Assembly (NCBI GenBank): GCA_030043285.1
Contig: JASHXZ010000044.1
Location: 1-12,319 of the forward strand
Direction of reading: 5' to 3'
DNA: 12,319 nucleotides
Source: Xanthobacteraceae bacterium
GTDB lineage: Bacteria > Pseudomonadota > Alphaproteobacteria > Rhizobiales > Xanthobacteraceae
Under the pieces are notes generated by a model, which searched no databases, had not been told where the DNA came from, and saw only the letters and a program-made list of their open reading frames with translations. Positions 614-12,319 of this stretch are shown one piece after another; the stretch's first letter is position 1; each line of letters begins with the position of its first letter. A program made the position numbers and the translations under genes.

Positions 614-1795
614 TTACTGCGCGTTATTATTGCCTGACCCGCCCGAGATCGGTGGAATGGAGGCGGGAATCGCCGAAACCGTGTAGCCCTTGACCTCCAG
701 GGTCCAGTCCGAATCGATCGCTGGATCCGCTCCGGCATATGGCAGAAACAGCGTCAGATTCGACACATAGAGCGTGCGGCCGTCCGGGCTGAAGGCCAGA
801 CTCGCCGGGAACAGAAAACCCTGAGCGATGCCGTTCTGGTCGATGCCGTCGAAATCACCGAGCTTGGCGATCACCTTTGCCAGCGTGGCGCCGGTCACCG
901 GGTTCTTAGCCTTGGGATCGATGACGACGATCTCGTCCTCCTGGTTGGAGCAGATCCAGATGTTGCCGGCGCGGTCGACCATGATGCCGTCTGGCGCGTT
1001 GATGCCGGTGATCAGGATCGAGGGCGTGCCAGGAACGAGCGTGCCGTTATTGTTGGTCACCGGGATCTGGATGATCTGGTGAAACGCCGTGTCGGCTACG
1101 TACATGACGGAGAAATCATTGCTGAACTCGATGCCGTTGGCGCCGAACGGCGGCGTCAATCCCGATCCCGGCCCGAGCAGCGACGGGAAGTTGACCCATG
1201 GCTTGAACTGGCAGCCGCCGCAATTCGGCGGCGCTGTCCAGATGACGCCCTGGAAGGAATCCGACACGTAGACATTGCCGGAATGGTCGAAGGTGAGCGC
1301 ATTGATGCCGGGTACCGTTCCCGAGCCGGCCACGGTCGGGATTGTCCCGAACACGCTGAACGCGCCAGTCTGCGGGTCGACATCGAGCACGTTGGCGGTG
1401 CCGGTCGCCTGCCCGGAGCCGAAGTCGAGCACCAATAGGTGATTGTTAACCGGATTGAACGCGAGGCCGAGCATGTGGGGGCTTGCCGCCGGCGAACCGC
1501 TCAGGGTCACTTGCCGGATGACCTTGCCGCTGGGATTGATGACGAACAGATCCGCAGGCCCCGTGGTCGAGCCCGTGGTGTTGAAGCCGAACGAGGGTAC
1601 GTAGACATTGCCGTCGGGCCCGACCGTGAGCCCTTCGACGCTGCTCGGCGCACCCGACTTCAAGGGCGGCAGTACAGTGAGCGTCTGCACCTGCCCGCGA
1701 TCCCACGCCGTCGCCGGTGCCGCAGCGAGCAGCGTCAGTGCCAGCGCCGAGCCGGCCGCGGTCGCGAGGGCCGCACCGATCTTCGATCGTGCCAT
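614..1795 (-). CDS. Secreted NHL/SMP-30-like beta-propeller protein
   Basis: The protein has 393 residues. The start at 1795 is supported by a GGGAGG ribosome binding site 6 nt upstream. Residues 1-30 form a clear Sec signal peptide (basic MARSK, Ala/Leu-rich core, cleavage after APATA), so the protein is periplasmic or exported. The mature part repeats blades of the type 'GLTVGPDGNVYV', 'ALTFDHSGNVYVSD', 'GIMVDRAGNIWICSN' and 'SLAFSPDGRTLYVSN', typical of NHL, SMP-30 and gluconolactonase-like beta-propellers. A CGGC pair (Cys192/Cys195) could form a disulfide or bind metal. The C-terminus is a Gly/Asn-rich tail. Such propellers may be lactonases or carbohydrate- or ligand-binding proteins. 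I cannot assign a substrate, and the catalytic residues are not certain. It appears monocistronic, with 250 bp to the next gene. Confidence 0.8.
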   Translation of the reverse strand: MARSKIGAALATAAGSALALTLLAAAPATAWDRGQVQTLTVLPPLKSGAPSSVEGLTVGPDGNVYVPSFGFNTTGSTTGPADLFVINPSGKVIRQVTLSGSPAASPHMLGLAFNPVNNHLLVLDFGSGQATGTANVLDVDPQTGAFSVFGTIPTVAGSGTVPGINALTFDHSGNVYVSDSFQGVIWTAPPNCGGCQFKPWVNFPSLLGPGSGLTPPFGANGIEFSNDFSVMYVADTAFHQIIQIPVTNNNGTLVPGTPSILITGINAPDGIMVDRAGNIWICSNQEDEIVVIDPKAKNPVTGATLAKVIAKLGDFDGIDQNGIAQGFLFPASLAFSPDGRTLYVSNLTLFLPYAGADPAIDSDWTLEVKGYTVSAIPASIPPISGGSGNNNAQ

Positions 1796-2084: not shown

Positions 2085-2705
2085 TCAGTTGGTGTGGGGA
2101 TCCGCGCGGCCGGCGCGATCGTCGGCTTCCAGATAGTGCGCCAGCAACGACAGCATCGCGTGGCCGTCCCATGCGGCGGGGCCGATGACGTGCCCTAGTT
2201 CACGGCCTTGCGCGTCGATCAACAGTGTCGTCGGCATGCCGACCGCGTTGACGGCGGAAATGGCATTCGCCGATTTGTCGACGTAGATCCGGAGTGCCTT
2301 CAGCCCAAGTTCGCGATAGAAACGCGCGACAACGTCACGGCCGCGGTGATCGATCGACAGCGGCACGACGGTGAATCCCGGCCCTCCCAGTTTTGCCTGT
2401 AGGCGATCGAGCGCCGGCATTTCCTTCCGGCACGGCACGCACCAAGTTGCCCAGACGTTGAGCAGCACCATGCGCCCGTGAAAGTCCGCAAGCGTCAACG
2501 GCGCATCGTCGCCGTTGGCGAAACTCAGCGGCGGCACCGGGCGTGGCGTCAGCAAGGGGATGAAGGGTGCCCCGTCAGATGGACCAAGCGTCGCCATCGA
2601 CCCACTGCCGATGGATGGAAATAGTGCCGCTTCCCGAGCGATCAGCACCGCACCGATCGCGGCCGCGAGCGCCGCGCTCACGCTGGCTATCGTGCGAACG
2701 CGCAT
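2085..2705 (-). CDS. TlpA-like membrane-anchored thioredoxin (thiol-disulfide oxidoreductase)
   Basis: The protein has 206 residues. An N-terminal hydrophobic segment (about residues 6-23, after MRVR) is a signal anchor or signal peptide, placing the redox domain in the periplasm. The AhpC/TSA-Redoxin-like fold starts near residue 55 with 'PPLSF...PLTLADFHGRMVLLNVWATWC'. The active site is WCVPC (Cys89, Cys92), followed by RKEMPALD. The cis-proline loop is VGMPTT (Pro158), followed by LLIDAQGREL. These are the standard hallmarks of TlpA/ResA proteins, which usually reduce disulfides in cytochrome c or copper-protein maturation. GGAG lies 10 nt before ATG. It is divergent from the bufferin-type operon and separated from it by 139 bp. 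A redox role connected with the Cys-containing BufA peptide or with copper is an inference from position only. Confidence 0.88.
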   Translation of the reverse strand: MRVRTIASVSAALAAAIGAVLIAREAALFPSIGSGSMATLGPSDGAPFIPLLTPRPVPPLSFANGDDAPLTLADFHGRMVLLNVWATWCVPCRKEMPALDRLQAKLGGPGFTVVPLSIDHRGRDVVARFYRELGLKALRIYVDKSANAISAVNAVGMPTTLLIDAQGRELGHVIGPAAWDGHAMLSLLAHYLEADDRAGRADPHTN

Positions 2706-2774
2706 GATGGAACTGCTCCGGTGCGCCTCTGGGTTGAGAAAATGCTGGCGAATAGTTTCGCTTGCGGGTAAGAT

Positions 2775-2802
2775 CGTATATAGGGGCGTCCTCCGGTGTC
2801 AA
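2775..2802 (-). promoter_or_regulatory. Candidate sigma70-type promoter of the TlpA-like gene
   Basis: On the minus strand TTGACA (plus coordinates 2797-2802) is followed after 16 nt by TATACG (2775-2780). This would start transcription near 2768, giving a leader of about 60 nt before the ATG at 2705. The -35 box is a perfect match and the -10 is 4 of 6. The gap 2706-2844 must also contain the promoter for the bufA side, for which I see no clear box pair. Confidence 0.42.
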
Positions 2803-2844
2803 ACAAAACCAAGAACTCCTGCGGCAAACGGGTAGAAGGGCATC

Positions 2845-3159
2845 ATGAAAACAGTGTGTGGTACGACAGCTCTGTCGGCTGCCATCGGTCTCGCGCTGGC
2901 ACTGCAAGGTTCGCCGAGTAGAGCCGCCATGCCGGACGACCCGGCAATGCAGGCGATGATGAAAGTCATCAAGAAGAGGATGGAAAGAGAGCACCTTGAA
3001 ATGTGCTATGGCATCAACGCTGCGGGCAAAAACGATTGTGGCACGGCGACGCATTCGTGCCACGGCATGGCCAAGCAGGCGCGCGATCCGGCATCGTATG
3101 TTCTGGTGCCGGCCGGTCTTTGCACGCACATCGCCGGCGGCAGCCTGGAGCCGCGCTGA
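2845..3159 (+). CDS. bufA: BufA-like bufferin precursor (DUF2282), exported Cys-containing peptide
   Basis: The protein has 104 residues. AGAAGGG lies 4 nt before the ATG. Residues 1-27/28 are a Sec signal peptide (K2, hydrophobic 6-20, cleavage at SRA-A). The mature part has the DUF2282 signature: CYGIN (Cys54), GKNDC (Cys65), SCHG (Cys72) and VPAGLC (Cys93), ending in IAGGSLEPR. In characterised bufferins, cysteines of this motif set are oxidatively modified by a DUF692 enzyme with help from a DUF2063 partner, and the exported product binds copper. The immediate bufB and bufC neighbours here match that arrangement. The stretch between the signal peptide and Cys54 is Met-rich (29, 35, 38, 39, 46, 53), and the mature chain has His50, 70, 73 and 95, all possible copper ligands. 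DPASY replaces an aromatic position that I remember as Trp in many relatives. The product chemistry is inferred from the family. Confidence 0.88.
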   Translation: MKTVCGTTALSAAIGLALALQGSPSRAAMPDDPAMQAMMKVIKKRMEREHLEMCYGINAAGKNDCGTATHSCHGMAKQARDPASYVLVPAGLCTHIAGGSLEPR

Positions 3160-3176
3160 CAGCCACCGGTCCGATC

Positions 3177-4067
3177 GTGTCCTCTGTTTGCGTGTCGAGC
3201 GATCGCCGGCAAGAGACGATACCCGCATTGCCGGGCATCGGGCTCCGCTTCCAGCATCACGACGCTGTCATCGCGCAGCGCCCGCGGGTGGCCTGGTTCG
3301 AAGTCCACAGCGAAAACTACATGGGTGGCGGCGCCGCCATTCGCGATCTTGAAACGATCCGCCGCGACTATCCGGTGTCGCTTCATGGCGTCGGACTATC
3401 ACTGGGCGGCGCCGAGGGTCTCGATGCCGTGCATCTTGGTCGCCTCGTCCGTCTGGTCGAGCGCATCGAGCCCGGCCTGGTCTCCGAGCATCTGAGTTGG
3501 AGCGTCAGCGAGGGCCATTATCTCGGCGACCTGTTACCACTGCCGCTCACCGAGGAGGCACTCGATGTCGTCTGCGACAACGTGCAACGCTTTCAAGATG
3601 CGGTGCGGCGCCGGATTCTGCTCGAAAATCCCTCGAACTATTTGCAGTACCGCCATTCGACCATCCCCGAGAGCGCGTTTCTCAGCATGGTCGCGCGGCG
3701 CACCGGCTGCGGCATCCTGTGCGACGTCAACAATATCTTCGTCAATTCCGCCAACCACGGGTGGGACGCGCAAGCCTATCTGAACGCTTTGCCTCCAGAC
3801 GACGTCAAGGAGCTGCATCTGGCCGGCCATGCCGTGAAGCCCCTGAGCAACGGTGCCGTGGTTCTTATCGACGACCACGGCTCGCAGGTCGATGCGGCGG
3901 TATGGGAGCTGTTCGGCAAAGCCGTGCAGCGCTTTGGAGCGCTGCCGACATTGATCGAATGGGACACCAATATTCCGCCGCTGGCCGCATTGCTCGAGCA
4001 GGCGAACCACGCTGCCGCCATTCTGTTGCAATCGTACCAGGCTTTGGCACATGGCGACCTTACGTGA
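3177..4067 (+). CDS. bufB: BufB-like DUF692 multinuclear non-heme iron oxidative enzyme (MNIO)
   Basis: With a GTG start at 3177 the protein has 296 residues, close to the usual 280-300. The frame is open upstream inside bufA to an ATG at 3003, but that would overlap bufA by 157 bp. GTG 3192 is an alternative, and neither GTG has a good ribosome binding site. The DUF692 TIM-barrel metal residues are all present: GLRFQHH (His27/28), WFEVHSENY (Glu42, His44, Glu46), LHGVG (His70), SEHLSW (Glu104, His105), LLENPSNY (Glu150), CDVNN (Asp183, Asn185), ELHLAGH (His214, His218), DDHG (Asp233, His234) and IEWDTNIP (Glu261). The family binds two or three irons and oxidises cysteines of a precursor peptide, as in methanobactin (MbnB) and bufferin maturation. 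It sits 17 nt after bufA, so BufA is the expected substrate. The enzyme should be cytoplasmic, acting before export. Confidence 0.93.
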   Translation: MSSVCVSSDRRQETIPALPGIGLRFQHHDAVIAQRPRVAWFEVHSENYMGGGAAIRDLETIRRDYPVSLHGVGLSLGGAEGLDAVHLGRLVRLVERIEPGLVSEHLSWSVSEGHYLGDLLPLPLTEEALDVVCDNVQRFQDAVRRRILLENPSNYLQYRHSTIPESAFLSMVARRTGCGILCDVNNIFVNSANHGWDAQAYLNALPPDDVKELHLAGHAVKPLSNGAVVLIDDHGSQVDAAVWELFGKAVQRFGALPTLIEWDTNIPPLAALLEQANHAAAILLQSYQALAHGDLT

Positions 4068-4830
4068 CATCCAGCGTGACTTTGCGCGCAGTCTTCTTGT
4101 GCCGGGCGACGGCGCGGCACTCGTCCACATCGCCGATGATCTCGCCGGCCCTGCCGAGCGGTTTAATATCTATCGTAACAATGTAGCGATTACCCTCGTC
4201 GGGGCGCTGCGCCTCGTCTATCCGGCCGTCGACAAGCTAGTCGGGTCGGATTTTTTTGACGGCGCCGCGCGGGCATTCATCAAGCGATACCCGCCGCGCA
4301 CCGCGTGCCTTGACTATTACGGCGACGACTTCCCCGACTTTCTCGCAGTGTTTCCTCCCGCCGCTACACTCGCCTATTTGGCCGATGTGGCTCGGCTTGA
4401 ATGGATAGCGCATATGGCGCTCCATGCGCCCGATGCGCCGGCGCTGCGGCCCGATGCGCTAACCAACCTTGCCGCCGGCGAACACGACCGCGTGCGCTTT
4501 GTGCCGCATCCGTCGGTCCGGCTGTTGGCCGTCCGCTATCCCGCCGACGCGATCTGGCGCGCCGTACTCGACGGCGACGCGGCGGTGCTCGGCGGCATCG
4601 CCTTGAAGGAGGAGCCGCGCTGGCTCGTCGTGCAGCGCCAGGCATCAGGCGTCGTGGTTGCCCGCCTTGACGAAGACGAAGCAAGCTGGAGCGACCTTTT
4701 ATTTTCGGGCGTGGCGCTGGGCCAAATCATGCCGGACGAGGAGAGCACGCGCTTTGTTGCGCTGCTCGCCGATCACCTCGCTTGCGGCCGCTTTGCCGGA
4801 TTTGATGTTGCGTCAGGAGCGGGTGTTTGA
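4051..4830 (+). CDS. bufC: BufC-like DUF2063 partner of the DUF692 enzyme
   Basis: The protein has 259 residues. Its ATG lies inside the last 17 bases of bufB, so translation is probably coupled. The N-terminal DUF2063 domain is clear: 'LRDIQRDFARSLL' (residues 4-16), 'RFNIYRNNVAITLVGALRLVYPAV' (about 37-60) and 'YPPRTACLDYYGDDFPDFLA' (about 79-98), then a second alpha/beta domain to the C-terminus. Proteins of this family (BufC, HvfC) accompany DUF692 enzymes. They are thought to bring the precursor to the enzyme, much as MbnC does for MbnB, although they are a different family. There is no signal peptide, consistent with a cytoplasmic complex. No intrinsic terminator is visible between its stop and the convergent TPR gene at 4907. 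Confidence 0.9.
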   Translation: MATLRDIQRDFARSLLVPGDGAALVHIADDLAGPAERFNIYRNNVAITLVGALRLVYPAVDKLVGSDFFDGAARAFIKRYPPRTACLDYYGDDFPDFLAVFPPAATLAYLADVARLEWIAHMALHAPDAPALRPDALTNLAAGEHDRVRFVPHPSVRLLAVRYPADAIWRAVLDGDAAVLGGIALKEEPRWLVVQRQASGVVVARLDEDEASWSDLLFSGVALGQIMPDEESTRFVALLADHLACGRFAGFDVASGAGV

Positions 4831-4863: not shown

Positions 4864-4971
4864 ATGAAAGCCGAGGCGCTGCACATCCGCGGCAGCGCAG
4901 CAGGGCTTATGCAAAGGTGCGCTCGTCGTAGACTTGCAACAGCTTTTCGAGCTCGACGACAACCCGGCTGA
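4864..4971 (+). other. Short reading frame with strong RBS after bufC (possible remnant of a lost gene)
   Basis: ATG 4864 is preceded by GAGAGGAGCGCA, the best Shine-Dalgarno in the operon, 33 nt after the bufC stop. The frame (MKAEALHIRGSAAGLMQRC...) closes after 35 codons and overlaps, antisense, the 3' end of the TPR gene at 4907. Bufferin operons often continue with a DoxX-like membrane protein (BufD), and none is present here. The first residues do not look like an obvious DoxX N-terminus. It could be a genuine small peptide, a broken gene start or chance. Confidence 0.25.
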
Positions 4972-6832
4972 TCACACCCGACCAATCACCTGGGGCATTT
5001 TGTCGAAACAGCCGCGCGGTCGGATACCACGGGCTATCGTCCCGATCGGTGAGCCAACGCCAACAGGTGCTATAGCGGTTGAGCAGCCAGAACGGCTTGC
5101 CGAGTGCGCCGGCGAGATGGGCCACCGATGTATCGACCGTGATGAGCAGGTCCAGATTATCGATCAGCGCCGCAGTATCCGAAAAGTCATGCAGGTCGTC
5201 GGCGCAGTCCACCACGCGGTGGCGATGCGCGCTGTTGCGCAATTGCGCGAGCGCGTGTTCGCCCTTCTGCAGGCTGTAGAATTCGCAGCCGGTGACGTGC
5301 AAAATAGGCGCCAGCTGTTCAAATTCGAGACTGCGCATGCGGTCGATGCGATGTGCGTTGGGTAGCTGCTTCCGCGGATCGCCGGCCCAGACCAACCCAA
5401 CCCGCGGCCTGTTGCGCCCACCCAGGTGAGTCCGCCACGCGTTCGTCTTTGCGGCTGCTGCAAACAGATAAGGCGTCTGCGCCGGTATCGTCCCGAGGCT
5501 GGTGCGGAAGGCGAGCGGCAGGCTGAGCAGCGGACACTGCAGTTCGAAACACGGCAGCTTGTTCGGCGCAGAAATGACCTCGGCCACGCCGGCTAAGCTC
5601 GCCATGAGGTCATTGAGTGGCGGCGGCACTTCCAGCAGTACGCGCGCGCCACGTCTGGCGACCAACGGCGCGTAGCGGCAGAATTGAATAGTGTCGCCAA
5701 ATCCCTGTTCGGCGTGCAGCAAGATTGTCTTGCCTTCGATCGACGTCTGCCCGAGCCAAAGCGGCTGGGTAAAATCGCGCTTTAATAGCGTAAGGTCTTC
5801 CTCTTTCCGGCGACGCCACTCATATTCCTGCCACCCCGCGGCAAAATCTCCTTTGAGAAGCTGCAACACTGATTTGTTGAGGTGTGCGTCAACGTAATCG
5901 CGACGCACCATAAGGGCGTGGTCGTAGCTCGCCAGCGCCTCGTCGAGCCGCATCAGTTCATGCAGCGCCACAGCTCGGTTGTAGAGCGTCTCGGCGTGAT
6001 CGGGCTGCAGCGCAAGGGCGTGGCCGTAGCTCGCCAGTGCCTCATCGAACCGCTTGAGTTCATGCAGGGTGTTGCCGCGGTTGCTGAGCGCTTCGGCATG
6101 ATCCGGCCGCACCGCGAGCGCACCATCGTAGCTCGCCAGCGCCTCGTCGAATCGCTGGAGGTCATGCAGCGTAATGCCCCGGTTATAGAGCGCCTCGGCA
6201 TGACCCGGCTGCAGCGCAAGGGCACGGTCGTAGCTCGCCAGCGCCTCGTCTAATCGCCGGATGTCATGCAGCGTGTTGCCGCGGTTGCTGAACGTCCCGG
6301 CATGGTGCGGCTGCAGCGCAATTGCGTGGTCGTAGCTCGCCAGCGCCTCGTCGAACCGCCTGAGTTTATGGAGCGTAATGCCGCGGTTGTTGTACGCGGG
6401 GGCATAATTCGGCCGCACCGCGACGGCGCGGTCGTAGCTTGCCAGCGCCTCGTCGAACCGCCGGAGTTCATGCAGCGTAATGCCGCGGTTATAGAGTGCA
6501 TCGGCGTAATCCGGCTGCACCGCGAGGGCGCGGTCGTAGCTTGCCAGCGCTTCGTCGAACCGCTTCAGTTTGTGCAGCGCCGCACCGCGGTTGCGGAGTG
6601 CCTCGGCATGATGCGGCCGCAGCGCAAGGGCATGGTCGTAATTCGCCAGCGCCTCATCGAGCCGCCGTTGCTGCGTTCTGATCACGGCGATCAGATGCAG
6701 CGCATCGAAATAATCGGCCTTAATACCAAGGATTGCGCGCGCCAAGTCATCGGCTTCACGTAACCGCCCGTCCCGATAGGCTGCAATGGCACGCCGCATT
6801 GCTTCGGGCAATGTTGGCGTCACATTGGCCAT
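4907..6832 (-). CDS. TPR-glycosyltransferase fusion protein, paralog 1 (8 repeats)
   Basis: The protein has 641 residues. I chose ATG 6832 (MANVTPTLPEAM) because GGGAGG lies 6 nt upstream and the same start is used by its tandem paralog. The frame is open further up to 7006 but without conserved protein. Residues 1-55 are a degenerate leading TPR. Residues 56-327 are eight perfect-length 34-residue TPRs of the form FDEALASYDRALAxxPDxAEALxNRGxTLHEL. Residues 328-641 are a GT-B fold domain related to GT9 heptosyltransferases. It has a glycine-rich loop (HAEQGFGDTIQFCRYAPL) and the nucleotide-sugar region (TVDTSVAHLAGALGKPFWLL), and ends SPWYPTARLFRQ...EKLLQVYDERTFA. The architecture recalls O-GlcNAc-transferase-like and protein- or surface-glycan-modifying enzymes. 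Donor and acceptor are unknown. It is 110 bp downstream of paralog 2 on the same strand. Confidence 0.85.
   Translation of the reverse strand: MANVTPTLPEAMRRAIAAYRDGRLREADDLARAILGIKADYFDALHLIAVIRTQQRRLDEALANYDHALALRPHHAEALRNRGAALHKLKRFDEALASYDRALAVQPDYADALYNRGITLHELRRFDEALASYDRAVAVRPNYAPAYNNRGITLHKLRRFDEALASYDHAIALQPHHAGTFSNRGNTLHDIRRLDEALASYDRALALQPGHAEALYNRGITLHDLQRFDEALASYDGALAVRPDHAEALSNRGNTLHELKRFDEALASYGHALALQPDHAETLYNRAVALHELMRLDEALASYDHALMVRRDYVDAHLNKSVLQLLKGDFAAGWQEYEWRRRKEEDLTLLKRDFTQPLWLGQTSIEGKTILLHAEQGFGDTIQFCRYAPLVARRGARVLLEVPPPLNDLMASLAGVAEVISAPNKLPCFELQCPLLSLPLAFRTSLGTIPAQTPYLFAAAAKTNAWRTHLGGRNRPRVGLVWAGDPRKQLPNAHRIDRMRSLEFEQLAPILHVTGCEFYSLQKGEHALAQLRNSAHRHRVVDCADDLHDFSDTAALIDNLDLLITVDTSVAHLAGALGKPFWLLNRYSTCWRWLTDRDDSPWYPTARLFRQNAPGDWSGVISRVVVELEKLLQVYDERTFA
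5852..6667 (-). repeat. Array of eight 102-bp TPR-coding repeats (paralog 1)
   Basis: Exactly 8 x 102 bp, each coding one 34-residue TPR and starting with the codons for RRLDEAL or KRFDEAL. Core stretches such as the one coding DEALASYDRALAL are nearly identical in DNA between units, and the period is unbroken. Such an array can gain or lose units by slippage or unequal recombination. Confidence 0.85.
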
Positions 6833-6853
6833 CCGGAGCCTCCCAAGCGTATA

Positions 6854-6879
6854 TTGGCATGCCAACAACCGCCTTTCAA
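6854..6879 (-). promoter_or_regulatory. Shared upstream element of paralog 1 (TTGAAA plus 12-bp palindrome)
   Basis: Minus strand: TTGAAAGGC (TTTCAA at 6874-6879 on plus), then a 20-nt stretch that ends in the perfect palindrome TTGGCATGCCAA (6854-6865), then TATACG (6848-6853). The same layout with the same 20-nt spacing precedes the other two paralogs. It may be an operator or promoter. A start site 6-8 nt after TATACG would fall inside the ribosome binding site, which argues against a simple promoter reading. Confidence 0.35.
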
Positions 6880-6942
6880 TTTCCTCGCTTCGGGCGGGAG
6901 GCTGTGATCGTTCTTCTGCTGTAGCACGATGCAGACGCATAC

Positions 6943-8928
6943 TCAGCGTAATCCCTGCAACAGCCTTTCGAGCTCGACAACAACGTGGCTGACCACACCC
7001 GGCCAATCACCTGGGGTTTTTTGTCGGAACAGCCGCGCAGTCGGATACCAGGGGCTGTCCTCGCGATCGAGCAGCCAGCGAAAGTCTGGGACAAAAGGCA
7101 ACAGGATCCAGACCGGTTTTGCCAATGCGCCCGCGAGATGCGCGACGCTCGTATCGACTGAAATCACCAAGTCCAAATTCGCGATCACGGCCGCCGTATC
7201 GGCGAAAGTGTCAAGCTTGTCGGCAAAATGCGCAATATCGCTGCGCTCTTTCAGCACCGTCGCGTCGTCGGCGCGAACGTCCTTTTGCAGGCTGATGAAT
7301 TCTGCATCGATATTGAGAAGCGGCAGCAGGGAGCGAAGATCAATCGACCGAATAGCGTCCGCCTTGTGGGTCGGGCTGCCTGACCAGGCGAGACCGATTA
7401 GCGGCTTGCCTTTTGGCCCGACCAAGCCGCTCCACCTGCCCAGGCTTCCCGGCGGAGCGGTAACATAAGGCACCTGCGCCGGAATCGACTCGACGCGTGT
7501 TCCCAATGCCAGCGGCAGGCTGAGCAACGGGCAATGCAGATCGAAATCCGGGGACTTCTCTTGTGGGGAAATGACCTGTGCCACGCCCGCCAAGCCCGCC
7601 ATCAGCTCTTTGAGCGGGAGGGGCACTTCGAGCAACACGCGAGCGCCGCGGCCGGCGACCAACGGTGCATAACGGCAAAATTGGATAGTGTCGCCAAATC
7701 CCTGTTCGGCATGGAGCAGGATTGTCTTCCCCTCTATCGCCGTCTCGCCAAGCCAACGCGGTTGAGTAAAATTGCGCTTAGCCGACAGGCGGATTTCGGT
7801 TTTCAGGCGCCACTCATATTCCGTCCAACCGGCGGCAAAGTCGCCTTTAAGAAGCCGCAAGAGAGATCTGTTGAAGTGCGCCTCGGCATAGTGCGGCTCT
7901 ACAGCCAGGGCACGGTCGTAGCTTGCCAGTGCCTCGTCAAACTGCTTCAGCTTATTCAGCGTCGCACCGTGGTTGCGGAGCGTTTCAAGATGGTCCGGTC
8001 GCAGCGCGAGAGCGCGGTTGTAGCTCGCCAGTGCCTCTTCATATCGCTTCAGTTCATACAGCGTGACGCCGCGGTTGCCGAACGCGTCGACGTGATCTGG
8101 CCGCAGCGCCAGGGCGCGGTCGTAGCTCGCCAGCGCTTCATCGAACCGCTTAAGTTCATGCAATGTCGTGCCACGGTTGCAGAGCGTCTCGACGTGGTCC
8201 GGCCGCAGCGCCAGGGCGCGGTCGTAGCTCGCCAGCGCCTCGTCGAACCGCTTCAATCGCCGCAGCGAATCGCCGCGGTTGCCCAGCGCGCCGGCATGAT
8301 CGGGTTGCAGCGCCAGCGCGCGGTCAAAGCTCGCCAGCGCCTCGTCGAACCGCTTGAGTTCATGTAACGTATTGCCGCGGTTATAGAGCGCCCCGGCATA
8401 ATGCGGCTGCAGGGCGAGCGCGTCGTCGTAGCTCGCCAGCGCCTCGTCAAAGCGCCGCAGTTCATACAGCGTGTTGCCGCGATTGCAGAGGACCTCGGCA
8501 TGATTCGGCTGCAGTGCGAGGGCGCTGTCGTAGCTCGCCAGCGCCTCGTCGAGCCGCTTCAACTGCCTTAGCGCGTTGCCGCGGTTATAGAGCGCCCCAG
8601 CACAATCCGGCTGCAGGGCAAGGGCGCTGTCATAGCTCGTCAGCGCCTCGTCAAACCGCCTGAGTTCGTGCAGCGTCGCACCGCGGTTGCAGAGCGCCTC
8701 GACGTGGTCCGGCCGCAGCGCAAGAGCGCGGTCATAGCTCGCCAGTGCTTCGTCGAGCCGCTGCTGCTGCGTTCTTATCACTGCGATCAAGTGCAGCGCA
8801 TCGAAATGATCGGCTTCAATAGCGAGGATTGCGCTCGCCGAGTCAGCGGCCTCACGTAACCGACCGCACTGATAGGCGGCGACCGCGCGCCGCATTGCCT
8901 CGGGCAATGTTGGCGTAACGTTGGCCAT
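6943..8928 (-). CDS. TPR-glycosyltransferase fusion protein, paralog 2 (9 repeats)
   Basis: The protein has 661 residues. ATG 8928 (MANVTPTLPEAM) has GGGAGG 6 nt upstream, identical in placement to paralog 1. Residues 56-361 are nine 34-residue TPRs. The remainder is the GT9-like GT-B domain with HAEQGFGDTIQFCRYAPLV and ISVDTSVAHLAGALAKPVWILLP. The linker after the TPRs differs from paralogs 1 and 3 (WRLKTEIRLSAKRNFTQPRWLG against WRRRKEEDLTLLKRDFTQPLWLG), and the tail is short (ERLLQGLR). The GT domain from the glycine-rich loop onward is almost identical to paralog 3. There is no signal peptide or membrane segment, so the protein is probably cytoplasmic. It and paralog 1 lie in tandem and could share a transcript. 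Many TPRs suggest binding of a protein acceptor or an assembly partner, which is an inference. Confidence 0.85.
   Translation of the reverse strand: MANVTPTLPEAMRRAVAAYQCGRLREAADSASAILAIEADHFDALHLIAVIRTQQQRLDEALASYDRALALRPDHVEALCNRGATLHELRRFDEALTSYDSALALQPDCAGALYNRGNALRQLKRLDEALASYDSALALQPNHAEVLCNRGNTLYELRRFDEALASYDDALALQPHYAGALYNRGNTLHELKRFDEALASFDRALALQPDHAGALGNRGDSLRRLKRFDEALASYDRALALRPDHVETLCNRGTTLHELKRFDEALASYDRALALRPDHVDAFGNRGVTLYELKRYEEALASYNRALALRPDHLETLRNHGATLNKLKQFDEALASYDRALAVEPHYAEAHFNRSLLRLLKGDFAAGWTEYEWRLKTEIRLSAKRNFTQPRWLGETAIEGKTILLHAEQGFGDTIQFCRYAPLVAGRGARVLLEVPLPLKELMAGLAGVAQVISPQEKSPDFDLHCPLLSLPLALGTRVESIPAQVPYVTAPPGSLGRWSGLVGPKGKPLIGLAWSGSPTHKADAIRSIDLRSLLPLLNIDAEFISLQKDVRADDATVLKERSDIAHFADKLDTFADTAAVIANLDLVISVDTSVAHLAGALAKPVWILLPFVPDFRWLLDREDSPWYPTARLFRQKTPGDWPGVVSHVVVELERLLQGLR
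7846..8763 (-). repeat. Array of nine 102-bp TPR-coding repeats (paralog 2)
   Basis: Exactly 9 x 102 bp without a break in period. Units 6 and 7 (both with ALASYDRALALRPDHV) are closest to each other, pointing to a recent local duplication. The last unit (ending AEAHFNRSLLRLLK) is the divergent capping repeat that also ends the other two arrays. Confidence 0.85.
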
Positions 8929-8944
8929 CCAAAGCCTCCCAGAC

Positions 8945-8976
8945 ATTATACTGGCATGCCAGCAGTCGCCTTTCAA
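8945..8976 (-). promoter_or_regulatory. Shared upstream element of paralog 2 (TTGAAA, palindrome, TATAAT)
   Basis: Minus strand: TTGAAA (8971-8976), a 20-nt spacer containing the perfect palindrome CTGGCATGCCAG (8951-8962), then a perfect TATAAT (8945-8950). The ATG is only 16 nt beyond TATAAT and the GGGAGG ribosome binding site lies at 8935-8940. If TATAAT were the -10, the message would start within or next to its own ribosome binding site. The conserved palindrome suggests a protein-binding site. Confidence 0.4.
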
Positions 8977-9202
8977 TTTTGTCGATCCAGCCGGGAGGTT
9001 GCGACAGCCGCCGACAATTTGCATTTTCGGAAATCCCAAACCGTGGCACCTCGCAAGGAAAGCGAAGATCGGGTTTGGCGGCCAGTCGCGCAACCAACGA
9101 AAGAAGGTTGAGATACGGCGCCCATTTCAAACTCATGTTTGCTTGGGAATTTCGAACACGCAATCGCCATTGAGGTGTGGCCCTGCTTCGCCAATCACGA
9201 AA

Positions 9203-9234
9203 TTGAAAGGCAATCGTCGGCGTGTCAGTATCGC
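9203..9234 (+). promoter_or_regulatory. Shared upstream element of paralog 3 (degenerate palindrome)
   Basis: TTGAAA (9203-9208), 20-nt spacer, TATCGC (9229-9234), the same spacing as paralogs 1 and 2. The palindrome is decayed here (CGGCGTGTCA in place of TGGCATGCCA). The ribosome binding site GGGAGG follows just before the start. Confidence 0.33.
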
Positions 9235-9251
9235 GCGAGGGAGGATGGCCG

Positions 9252-11429
9252 ATGTCCAACGCGACGCCGACATTCCCGGAAGCAATGAAACAGGCGGTTG
9301 CGGCCTATCAGCATGGGCGGCTAGGTGAGGCCGCTGACTTGGCGCGCGCGATACTCGGTGTGCGACCGGACTATTTCGACGCCCTTCATCTAATTGCCGT
9401 GATTAATGCGCGGCAACGACGGTTCGGCGAGGCGCTGGCGAGCTATGATCGGGCCCTTACGGTGCAACGGGATCATGCCGGGGCGCTCTGCAACCGCGGC
9501 GTGACGTTGCATGAGCTGAAGCGCTTCGACGAGGCGTTGGCGAGTTATGACCGAGCCGTTGCGGTACGGCCGGATTACGCCGAGGCACTCTTCAATCGCG
9601 GCATCACATTGCAGGAGCTTAAACGCTTCGAGGAGGCGCTGGCGAGTTACGACCGCGCGCTTTTGCTGCGACCGACTTATGCCGAGGCGCTCAGCAATCG
9701 CGGCAATACGCTGCATGAACTCAAGCGGTTCGACGAGGCGCTGGCGAGTTATGACCGCGCGCTGGCGCTGCGGCCCGATCATGGTGGAGCGCTCAGCAAC
9801 CGCGGCAATACGTTGCATGAACTCAAGCGGTTCGACGAAGCACTGGCGAGCTACGACCGCGCCCTGGCGCTGCAGCCCGATCATGCCGAGGCGCTCTTCA
9901 ACCGCGGCATGACGCTGCATGAGCTCAAACGGTTCGAGGAGGCGCTGGTAAGCTACGACCGCGCCGTCGCGGTGCAGCCGGATCATGCCGAGGCGCTGTG
10001 TAATCGCGGCAACGTGCTCTTGGATATGAAAAGGTTCGGCGAAGCGCTGGCGAGCTACGAGCGCGCCCTTACGGCGCGGCCGGATTACGCCGAGGCGCTC
10101 TATAACCGCGGCATGGCGTTGCGTGAATTGAAGCGGCCCGACGAGGCGCTGGCGAGCTACGAGCGCGCTCTCGCGGTTCGGCCGGATCATGCCGAGGCGT
10201 TTTACAGTCGCGGCGTCATGCTGCGAGAATTAAAGCGTCTTGACGAGGCGCTGGCGAGTTACGACCGCGCGCTCGCAGTGCGGCCGGATTATTTCGAGGC
10301 GCTCAACAACCGCGGCGTGACGCTGCATGACATGGCGCGGTTTGACGAGGCGTTGGCGAGCTATGAGCGTGCCCTTACGGTGCGGCCGGACTACGTCCCC
10401 GCGCTCACCAATTGCGGCGTCACGCTGCACCAATTGCGGCGGCTTGACGAAGCGCTGGCTTGCTACGACGGCTCGCTCGCCTTGAACCCGGGTTATGTTG
10501 ATGGACACTTTAACAAGGCTCTTCTGCAACTGCTCAAGGGAGATTACGACGCCGGCTGGCGGGAATATGAGTGGCGGCGCTGGAAAGAGGAAAACCTCAC
10601 GATATTCAAGCGCGATTTTGCCCAGCCACTTTGGCTCGGTCAGACGGCAATCGCAGGCAAGACAATCCTGCTCCATGCCGAACAGGGATTTGGCGACACT
10701 ATCCAATTTTGCCGGTACGCGCCGTTGGTCGCCGGCCGCGGCGCTCGCGTGTTGCTCGAAGTACCCCTCCCGCTCAAAGACCTGATGGCAGGCTTGGCGG
10801 GCGTGGCACAGATCATTTCGCCACAAGAGAAGTCGCCGGATTTCGATCTGCATTGCCCGTTGCTCAGCCTGCCGCTGGCATTGGGAACACGCGTCGAGTC
10901 GATTCCGGCCCAGGTGCCTTATGTTACCGTTCAGCCGGAAAGCTTGCGAAGATGGAGCAGCGCATTAGGGCCGAAAGGCAGGCTGCGAATCGGTCTCGCC
11001 TGGTCAGGCAGCTCAGCCCACAAGAGCGACGCTATTCGGTCGATCGATCTTCGTTCCCTGCTGCCGCTTCTCAACATCGATGCAGAATTCGTCAGCCTGC
11101 AAAAAGACGTTCGTGCCGACGACGCGACGGTGCTCAACGAGCGTGGCGATATCACGCATTTTGGCGACAAGCTTGACAGCTTCGCCGATACGGCGGCCGT
11201 CGTCGCGAACCTGGACTTGGTGATCTCGGTCGATACGAGCGTAGCCCATCTGGCCGGAGCGTTGGCAAAGCCCGTCTGGATCCTGTTGCCTTTTCTGCCG
11301 GACTTTCGTTGGCTGCTCGAGCGCGATGACAGTCCCTGGTATCCGACCGCGCGGCTGTTCCGGCAGCGGACCCCAGGCGATTGGTCGGACGTGATTAGCC
11401 GCGTTGTTGTTGAGCTCCAAAAACTGTAG
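9252..11429 (+). CDS. TPR-glycosyltransferase fusion protein, paralog 3 (11 repeats)
   Basis: The protein has 725 residues. ATG 9252 (MSNATPTFPEAM) aligns with the starts of paralogs 1 and 2 and follows GGGAGG. An ATG at 9222 in frame would add only ten non-conserved residues. Residues 56-429 are eleven 34-residue TPRs, the largest array of the three. Residues 430-725 are the GT9-like GT-B domain with the same glycine-rich loop and SVDTSVAHLAGALAKPVWILLP. The linker (WRRWKEENLTIFKRDFAQPLWLG) and the final segment (DWSDVISRVVVELQKL) resemble paralog 1, while the centre of the GT domain is nearly identical to paralog 2. It ends at TAG 11427-11429, five to ten residues earlier than its paralogs, with homologous codons continuing after the stop. 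Donor and acceptor are unknown. It is convergent with the multicopper oxidase gene. Confidence 0.86.
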   Translation: MSNATPTFPEAMKQAVAAYQHGRLGEAADLARAILGVRPDYFDALHLIAVINARQRRFGEALASYDRALTVQRDHAGALCNRGVTLHELKRFDEALASYDRAVAVRPDYAEALFNRGITLQELKRFEEALASYDRALLLRPTYAEALSNRGNTLHELKRFDEALASYDRALALRPDHGGALSNRGNTLHELKRFDEALASYDRALALQPDHAEALFNRGMTLHELKRFEEALVSYDRAVAVQPDHAEALCNRGNVLLDMKRFGEALASYERALTARPDYAEALYNRGMALRELKRPDEALASYERALAVRPDHAEAFYSRGVMLRELKRLDEALASYDRALAVRPDYFEALNNRGVTLHDMARFDEALASYERALTVRPDYVPALTNCGVTLHQLRRLDEALACYDGSLALNPGYVDGHFNKALLQLLKGDYDAGWREYEWRRWKEENLTIFKRDFAQPLWLGQTAIAGKTILLHAEQGFGDTIQFCRYAPLVAGRGARVLLEVPLPLKDLMAGLAGVAQIISPQEKSPDFDLHCPLLSLPLALGTRVESIPAQVPYVTVQPESLRRWSSALGPKGRLRIGLAWSGSSAHKSDAIRSIDLRSLLPLLNIDAEFVSLQKDVRADDATVLNERGDITHFGDKLDSFADTAAVVANLDLVISVDTSVAHLAGALAKPVWILLPFLPDFRWLLERDDSPWYPTARLFRQRTPGDWSDVISRVVVELQKL
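9417..10538 (+). repeat. Array of eleven 102-bp TPR-coding repeats (paralog 3)
   Basis: Exactly 11 x 102 bp. Units 4 and 5 (both KRFDEALASYDRALAL..., at about 9723-9926) are nearly identical in DNA. Units 7-10 use YERAL or YDRAL with RPDY/RPDH and form a second sub-group, suggesting growth by block duplication. Confidence 0.85.
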
Positions 11430-11611: not shown

Positions 11612-12319
11612 TCAGCTGCCGCCAGGCTTGCCATTCTTCAGGCTGTCGTACGGTGGGAAGGCGCCGGCCAGAATTTCGTCTGGCGCCTCGAAGGTCACTC
11701 CGGTCGGCGCTGGGATCGGGGTCGGCAGCGGATTGAGGAAGACGCCGCCGGCAGGGTTGACATCCCAGCGCAACAGCATGCCGTTGTCCTCATGCATGGT
11801 GTTGTGGCAGTGCTCCATGAACATGCCGCCCCAATCGCGGAACTGGATGAACAGCGTGAGACCAGTGGCGCCGGGGTGCAGCCGATAGACATCCTTGCGG
11901 CCGCCTTCCCAAGCCGGAACGTTGGTGGCGGTGCCGCTGCGGGCAAGGATGTGACCCTCCTCGAAGTGGATGTGGATCGGGTGGTCCCATGTGCCACCGT
12001 TGACCAGCGTCCACGTCTCCGCTGTGCCACTGGTCGGCGCCGAGCTGATGCGGCCGAAGTCCGACAACAACTGACAGTTAGCATCGTCGTTGCCGCTGCC
12101 GATCGTGCCGCTGCCGATATCGCAGATAGTGTGGCCGGTGCCGGAGAAGAGCGTATTATTGTTAACGGTTGCGATGGCCCAGCTCCCGAGACCTTGACCG
12201 TTGCCGCCGTTCGTGCCGTTGCCGGTGTAGGTCGTGACCGGATCGTTTTGGGTCAGATAGCCTTGATGGCCGAATACGAACGTCCGATTATTGGTGATCG
12301 TCGGCTCGACCGGATTGGG
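11612..12319 (-). CDS. Multicopper oxidase, C-terminal part (5' end beyond right edge)
   Basis: The frame is open from base 12319 to the TGA at 11612 (235 codons visible) and has no start in the window. It carries the C-terminal cupredoxin domain of multicopper oxidases. HPIHIH (coded at 11966-11983) supplies type 1/2/3 copper ligands. HCHNTMHEDNGM (coded at 11777-11812) is the HCHxxxHxxxGM motif with the type 1 Cys, His and axial Met. The preceding part is Gly/Asn/Thr-rich (TGNGTNGGNGQGLG, GSGTIGSGNDDANC) and looks like a loop or insert. Possible roles are copper or manganese oxidation, or phenol oxidation. The family alone does not decide, and export is expected but the N-terminus is not visible. 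It is convergent with TPR paralog 3. Confidence 0.9.
   Translation of the reverse strand, partial: PNPVEPTITNNRTFVFGHQGYLTQNDPVTTYTGNGTNGGNGQGLGSWAIATVNNNTLFSGTGHTICDIGSGTIGSGNDDANCQLLSDFGRISSAPTSGTAETWTLVNGGTWDHPIHIHFEEGHILARSGTATNVPAWEGGRKDVYRLHPGATGLTLFIQFRDWGGMFMEHCHNTMHEDNGMLLRWDVNPAGGVFLNPLPTPIPAPTGVTFEAPDEILAGAFPPYDSLKNGKPGGS

Follow-up and report, generated by a model that had tools for sequence, protein, structure and literature searches.

A probable Buf1-type bufferin operon with a divergent tlpA-like gene and a methionine-rich pre-core helix in an uncultured Xanthobacteraceae bacterium

The stretch of DNA analysed here (the window), 12,319 bases long, is one entire contig from the metagenome-assembled genome (65.7% complete) of an uncultured, soil-type member of the Xanthobacteraceae. 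It very probably carries a Buf1 bufferin operon, whose chemistry and copper role we infer from homology. The bufABC core is already a known kind, ordinary and well supported, and its setting is a modest, unusual variation. The original prediction had described a plain trio, of which the bufABC part stands; it was silent on the divergent tlpA, on the absence of DoxX and ECF/NrsF genes and on the precursor's Met-rich helix.

The bufABC core and its surroundings

As originally predicted, translation of the window places three genes with intact frames at 2845-4830 on the forward strand, and all three products pass their Pfam cut-offs (Table 1). The small peptide does carry the four cysteines of the DUF2282 type, C54, C65, C72 and C93 of the core, which are invariant across the 46-row BufA alignment, while a fifth, C5, falls within the signal-peptide-like part. 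The HMM search, set beforehand as a possible refutation, assigned the small gene to DUF2282 and to no unrelated family. In BufB, the residues H70, H105, E150, D183, N186, H214, D232, H234, E261 and D263 are identical in at least 98% of 81 BufB sequences; in MNIO structures, residues of this kind serve as metal ligands. The third gene is, as had been proposed, a DUF2063 gene overlapping bufB, in this case by 17 bases.

The proposal of a bufferin-type operon is borne out by the NCBIfam model MNIO_BufB (NF050167), a curated bufferin-maturase model that BufB passes with 366.9 bits (cut-off 310), and homology supports the bufferin interpretation. The PF05114 model that matches BufB is named MbnB_TglH_ChrH, and the best PDB match of the protein is 3bww. 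BufC stays under the cut-off of the NCBIfam HvfC model (31.3 of 142 bits). Membership of the Buf2 bufferins was rejected, given 23.5 of 60 bits with the NCBIfam BufA2 model NF050166 and four core cysteines against 6 or 12. The window's genome has one DUF2282 match and one MNIO match; a second, distant MNIO-like match is present in the congener G008. The open frame of bufB extends over 3003-4067, and its start is most likely the GTG at 3177, 17 bases past the bufA stop, with a 296 aa product, because the BufB proteins of relatives align from residue 1. In G008 the codon aligned with this GTG is no start codon.

Table 1. Features of the window and of other bufferin loci
Feature	Locus	Position	Strand	Description	Evidence or remark
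SMP-30/NHL gene	window	614-1795	-	beta-propeller protein, signal-peptide-like start	
tlpA-like thioredoxin gene	window	2085-2705	-	206 aa, hydrophobic N-terminus, WCVPC	Redoxin and AhpC-TSA over cut-off
bufA/tlpA intergenic region	window	2706-2844	.	139 bases	stretches conserved in four-genome alignment
bufA	window	2845-3159	+	Buf1-type (DUF2282) bufferin precursor, 104 aa	PF10048 69.7 bits, cut-off 22.4
Met-rich linker helix	window	2929-3003	+	BufA residues 29-53, ahead of first core Cys	conservation in 53 sequences
bufB	window	3177-4067	+	MNIO family (DUF692) bufferin maturase, 296 aa	PF05114 338.7 bits, cut-off 25
bufC	window	4051-4830	+	DUF2063 partner (PME-type 1), 259 aa	PF09836 82.9 bits, cut-off 27.2
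TPR paralog	window	4907-7006	-	TPR array, glycosyltransferase-9-like C-terminal part	Glyco_transf_9 over cut-off
TPR paralog	window	6943-9093	-	TPR array, glycosyltransferase-9-like C-terminal part	Glyco_transf_9 over cut-off
TPR paralog	window	9222-11429	+	TPR array, glycosyltransferase-9-like C-terminal part	
Multicopper oxidase fragment	window	11612-12319	-	C-terminal part, running off contig end	PF07731 60.2 bits
MNIO-like match	G008	C254:12257-13087		second, distant match	28% identity
Thioredoxin + CcdA pair	L037			Paraburkholderia podalyriae	Pfam-checked
Thioredoxin + CcdA pair	L038			Hyphomicrobiales MAG	same contig as L119, Pfam-checked there
Thioredoxin + CcdA pairs	L069, L076			Rhodospirillales MAGs	L069 Pfam-checked
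Thioredoxin + CcdA pair	L094			Comamonas	about 4 kb away
Thioredoxin + CcdA pairs	L121, L123, L124			family genomes	Pfam-checked
VKOR-family gene	L121	7742-8134			after thioredoxin and CcdA

The gene identities, the selection acting on the genes and their conserved arrangement are direct observations. Over six pairs from four genomes dN/dS was 0.10-0.16 for bufA, 0.24-0.47 for bufB and 0.25-0.30 for bufC, values that mark the three as selected genes and not chance frames, and in the same comparison tlpA is likewise under purifying selection. The order bufA-bufB-bufC together with the divergent tlpA is kept in all three bufA-bearing congeners and also outside the genus, in the genome G109. Downstream of bufC lie three adjoining large paralogs with TPR arrays, relatives of which are also found downstream of bufC in the congeners; the SMP-30/NHL gene was not found beside bufABC in the three congeners. 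Among plasmid records, 83 have DUF2282 matches and none of these spans 80% of the query, so a plasmid origin is not argued.

The divergent thioredoxin gene and redox genes at bufferin loci

The product of the gene divergent to bufA resembles TlpA; its best PDB matches are the Bradyrhizobium-type TlpA structures 1jfu and 4txo, with which it shares the WCVPC motif. However, it falls under the cut-off of the NCBIfam TlpA equivalog NF047696 (163.1 of 230 bits), and we do not file it as the TlpA of cytochrome oxidase maturation. Inspection by eye of the intergenic region in the four-genome alignment led to no promoter assignment. The gene stands divergently beside bufA in the three congeners, with identities of 81 to 85% and 74%, and in G109 (63% identity over 150 residues). 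Across 20 genomes of the genus, bufB orthologs (at least 77% identity) and tlpA orthologs (at least 74%) occur in the same four. This perfect co-occurrence comes cheap, since tlpA and bufB are close neighbours and, on the BufB tree, the five copies of bufB (those of the window, the three congeners and G109) form one clade.

A reductive partnership, in which TlpA would keep the bufferin or its disulfide in a copper-holding state, is a tentative reading and on the doubtful side. Bradyrhizobium TlpA reduces the copper-site proteins ScoI and COX II (PMC6696091). Against the partnership, the co-occurrence may reflect mere adjacency on one inherited block, tlpA lies outside the bufABC operon, and these genomes have canonical TlpA-like and DsbD_TM genes at other sites, which would supply a reductant in any case.

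The main rival is that tlpA is an unrelated neighbour, for instance a thioredoxin of cytochrome oxidase maturation, riding on the same block as a plain bufABC trio, and to this we give even chances. Being divergent, tlpA is not co-transcribed with bufABC, every linked case falls in one clade, the NHL-repeat and TPR proteins surrounding the operon show no copper link, and the closest solved relative, the Bradyrhizobium TlpA, serves cytochrome oxidase (PMC6696091). On the other hand, a second TlpA-like protein of 41-49% identity is found, additionally or alone, in 18 of the 20 genus genomes, with or without bufB, and the tlpA copy next to bufA is therefore an extra one in three of the four bufB genomes. 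The unrelated-neighbour explanation also has to account for further bufferin loci in the clade that have thioredoxin or thioredoxin-CcdA genes.

A survey with profiles built in this analysis covered 89 bufferin loci (87 distinct). DoxX is present at 76 of the 89 (74/87 distinct), an ECF sigma factor at 45 (43/87) and NrsF at 30 (28/87), and CcdA/DsbD_TM at nine (8/87), each of the nine with a small thioredoxin. In a profile search at E<=1e-3, DoxX, ECF sigma, NrsF and CcdA were all absent from the window and from the loci L022-L024 and L118. The first three are frequent accessories of Buf1 loci and not defining ones, and they are absent from the locus of this lineage. Elsewhere in five genomes, DoxX-family genes are found in all and DsbD_TM once in each; NrsF was found in none of the five, whose assemblies are incomplete (65.7 to 90%).

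The BufB tree has 86 rows and is midpoint-rooted, and the 39-row clade that includes the window depends on that root and was picked post hoc. A thioredoxin-fold gene lies near bufB at 13 of the 39 loci of this clade as against one of 46 others (Fisher p 1.7e-4), a comparison that, like that of linker length below, was chosen after the data were seen and is inflated by related rows. The remaining 26 clade members show no such gene nearby, some of their contigs being short. Loci bearing CcdA appear, as we read the drawn tree, to be scattered over several places; the computed change count for the CcdA group is 1, ungrouped rows being left uncounted. At one of these loci, L121, the thioredoxin and CcdA genes are followed by one of the VKOR family, which puts an oxidising and a reducing thiol system next to each other.

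The methionine-rich helix of BufA

BufA has a signal-peptide-like start (residues about 1-27, by eye), followed by the Met-rich segment. The homolog search returned 183 proteins at E<=0.001, and conservation was taken from the best 52 of the 183 plus the window. In all 53 sequences M38, H50 and M53 are identical, M53 directly preceding C54, and M46 is found in 48, M35 in 42, M39 in 40 and M29 in 34. The methionine content of the pre-core region is 15.9%, 18.3% and 16.9% in three sets of near relatives (28, 25 and 15 sequences), as against 0.3-2.0% for their cores. Other bufferins, too, are fairly rich in Met ahead of the core, with 11.6% in the distant homologs among the 120 matches listed (P0069-P0120, 52 sequences). 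The pre-core share is 13.2% inside the window's BufB clade and 8.7% outside, and the distance from the hydrophobic region to the first core cysteine has a median of 29 residues in the clade versus 9 outside (36/39 and 38/46 BufA parsed), with the limits given above for such clade comparisons. Some relatives (P0053-P0068) carry Met/Gln/His-rich insertions of 40-60 residues. With P0065 as the query for Met-rich long-linker members, matches were found in four of 397 genomes of the order, the window's own included. A Met-enrichment p value of 8.9e-7 was discarded for two reasons: the background of 0.97% Met came from seven window proteins, three of them Met-poor TPR proteins, and the linker cut took in part of the signal peptide.

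The AlphaFold2 model of BufA has middling confidence (mean pLDDT 67.1, pTM 0.45); residues 33-49 are predicted to be helical, and block pLDDT in that part is 77 to 85. A fold search of the model against the PDB gave 13 matches, none at E<=0.001, and a PDB sequence search with BufA gave one match (E 0.4). The likeliest role of the Met-rich segment is that of a docking helix, one face of which may bind copper, and docking is preferred for the window's short form.

Whether it would be a recognition helix only, leader-like, for the BufB-BufC complex, with methionine as a generic hydrophobic residue, could go either way. The predicted helix abuts the core, M35, M38/M39, M46 and M53 are spaced for one helix face, and relatives without the Met richness retain a helix-like segment of like length; moreover, according to preliminary results in PMC12452194, the recognition sequence includes the signal peptide. 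However, M38 and M53 are not freely replaced by L, I or V, which does not fit a generic hydrophobic role, nor do the 40-60 residue insertions resemble a single docking helix.

Proposed working of the operon and its significance

PMC12452194 describes DUF2282 precursors that come with BufB and BufC as Buf1 bufferins. In these the central cysteines are modified, the outer two are disulfide-linked, and both Cu(I) and Cu(II) are bound by the product; the same paper reports copper protection by the Caulobacter Buf1. Related products carry 5-thiooxazole (PMC13097082). By analogy with these, we infer every chemical and physiological step in this organism, BufA modification and copper binding included. 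BufA would carry a Sec signal peptide when synthesised, BufB and BufC would convert the central C65 and C72 into 5-thiooxazoles before export, and C54 and C93 would pair as a disulfide. The exported bufferin would then sequester periplasmic copper and ease copper stress, and the divergent, membrane-anchored TlpA-type thioredoxin might keep it, or its disulfide, reduced or correctly paired for holding copper.

Compared with the Buf1 operons described in PMC12452194, with Caulobacter vibrioides as the type case, the window shares the DUF2282 precursor, here with a signal-peptide-like start, the four core cysteines, the MNIO BufB, the DUF2063 BufC and the gene order, but it lacks DoxX, ECF sigma and NrsF at the locus and has the divergent tlpA and the long Met-rich pre-core helix. 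Captophorins, among them fontiphorin and oxazolin, are 5-thiooxazole products that come from MNIO-PME1 clusters (PMC13097082). They likewise involve an MNIO enzyme and a DUF2063 partner, and DUF2282 precursors are one of the three precursor groups named in that paper; the window's BufA differs in having no EGKCG repeats and in belonging to the DUF2282 precursor group. That the mature product acts on another metal or stress than copper is quite improbable, since, although gold-induced (gig) operons and MerC fusions occur among bufferins (PMC12452194), the Caulobacter Buf1 is reported as copper-protective in the same paper and the multicopper oxidase fragment 6.8 kb downstream of the operon on the same contig is a weak circumstantial pointer to copper.

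The main text of PMC12452194 has no mention of TlpA, thioredoxin, CcdA, DsbD, Met-rich or methionine, and that of PMC13097082 none of thioredoxin, TlpA, CcdA or methionine; PMC13038864 mentions bufferin and TlpA in separate contexts. The survey of PMC12452194 took in genes of unknown relevance only if they lay within 10 bp of a known gene, and a divergent tlpA 139 bases off would therefore be left out, a blind spot of that rule. How the redox state of the sulfur ligands is kept up after export is not addressed in the portions of the bufferin literature drawn on here.

Bufferins have recently been described as a large copper-defence strategy. It is conceivable, though we think it unlikely, that one Buf1 branch has its own reductive recharging, in which either a thioredoxin of the TlpA type or a thioredoxin paired with CcdA, a membrane electron carrier, would hold thiooxazole thiols or bound copper in the reduced state in the periplasm and the Met-rich helix would add a second, thioether Cu(I) site, making the bufferin a regenerated two-module copper buffer and not a single-use one. 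If a thioredoxin or a thioredoxin-CcdA pair does serve bufferins, RiPP metallophores would be linked to the periplasmic thiol-reducing system, an idea that four genes would suffice to test.
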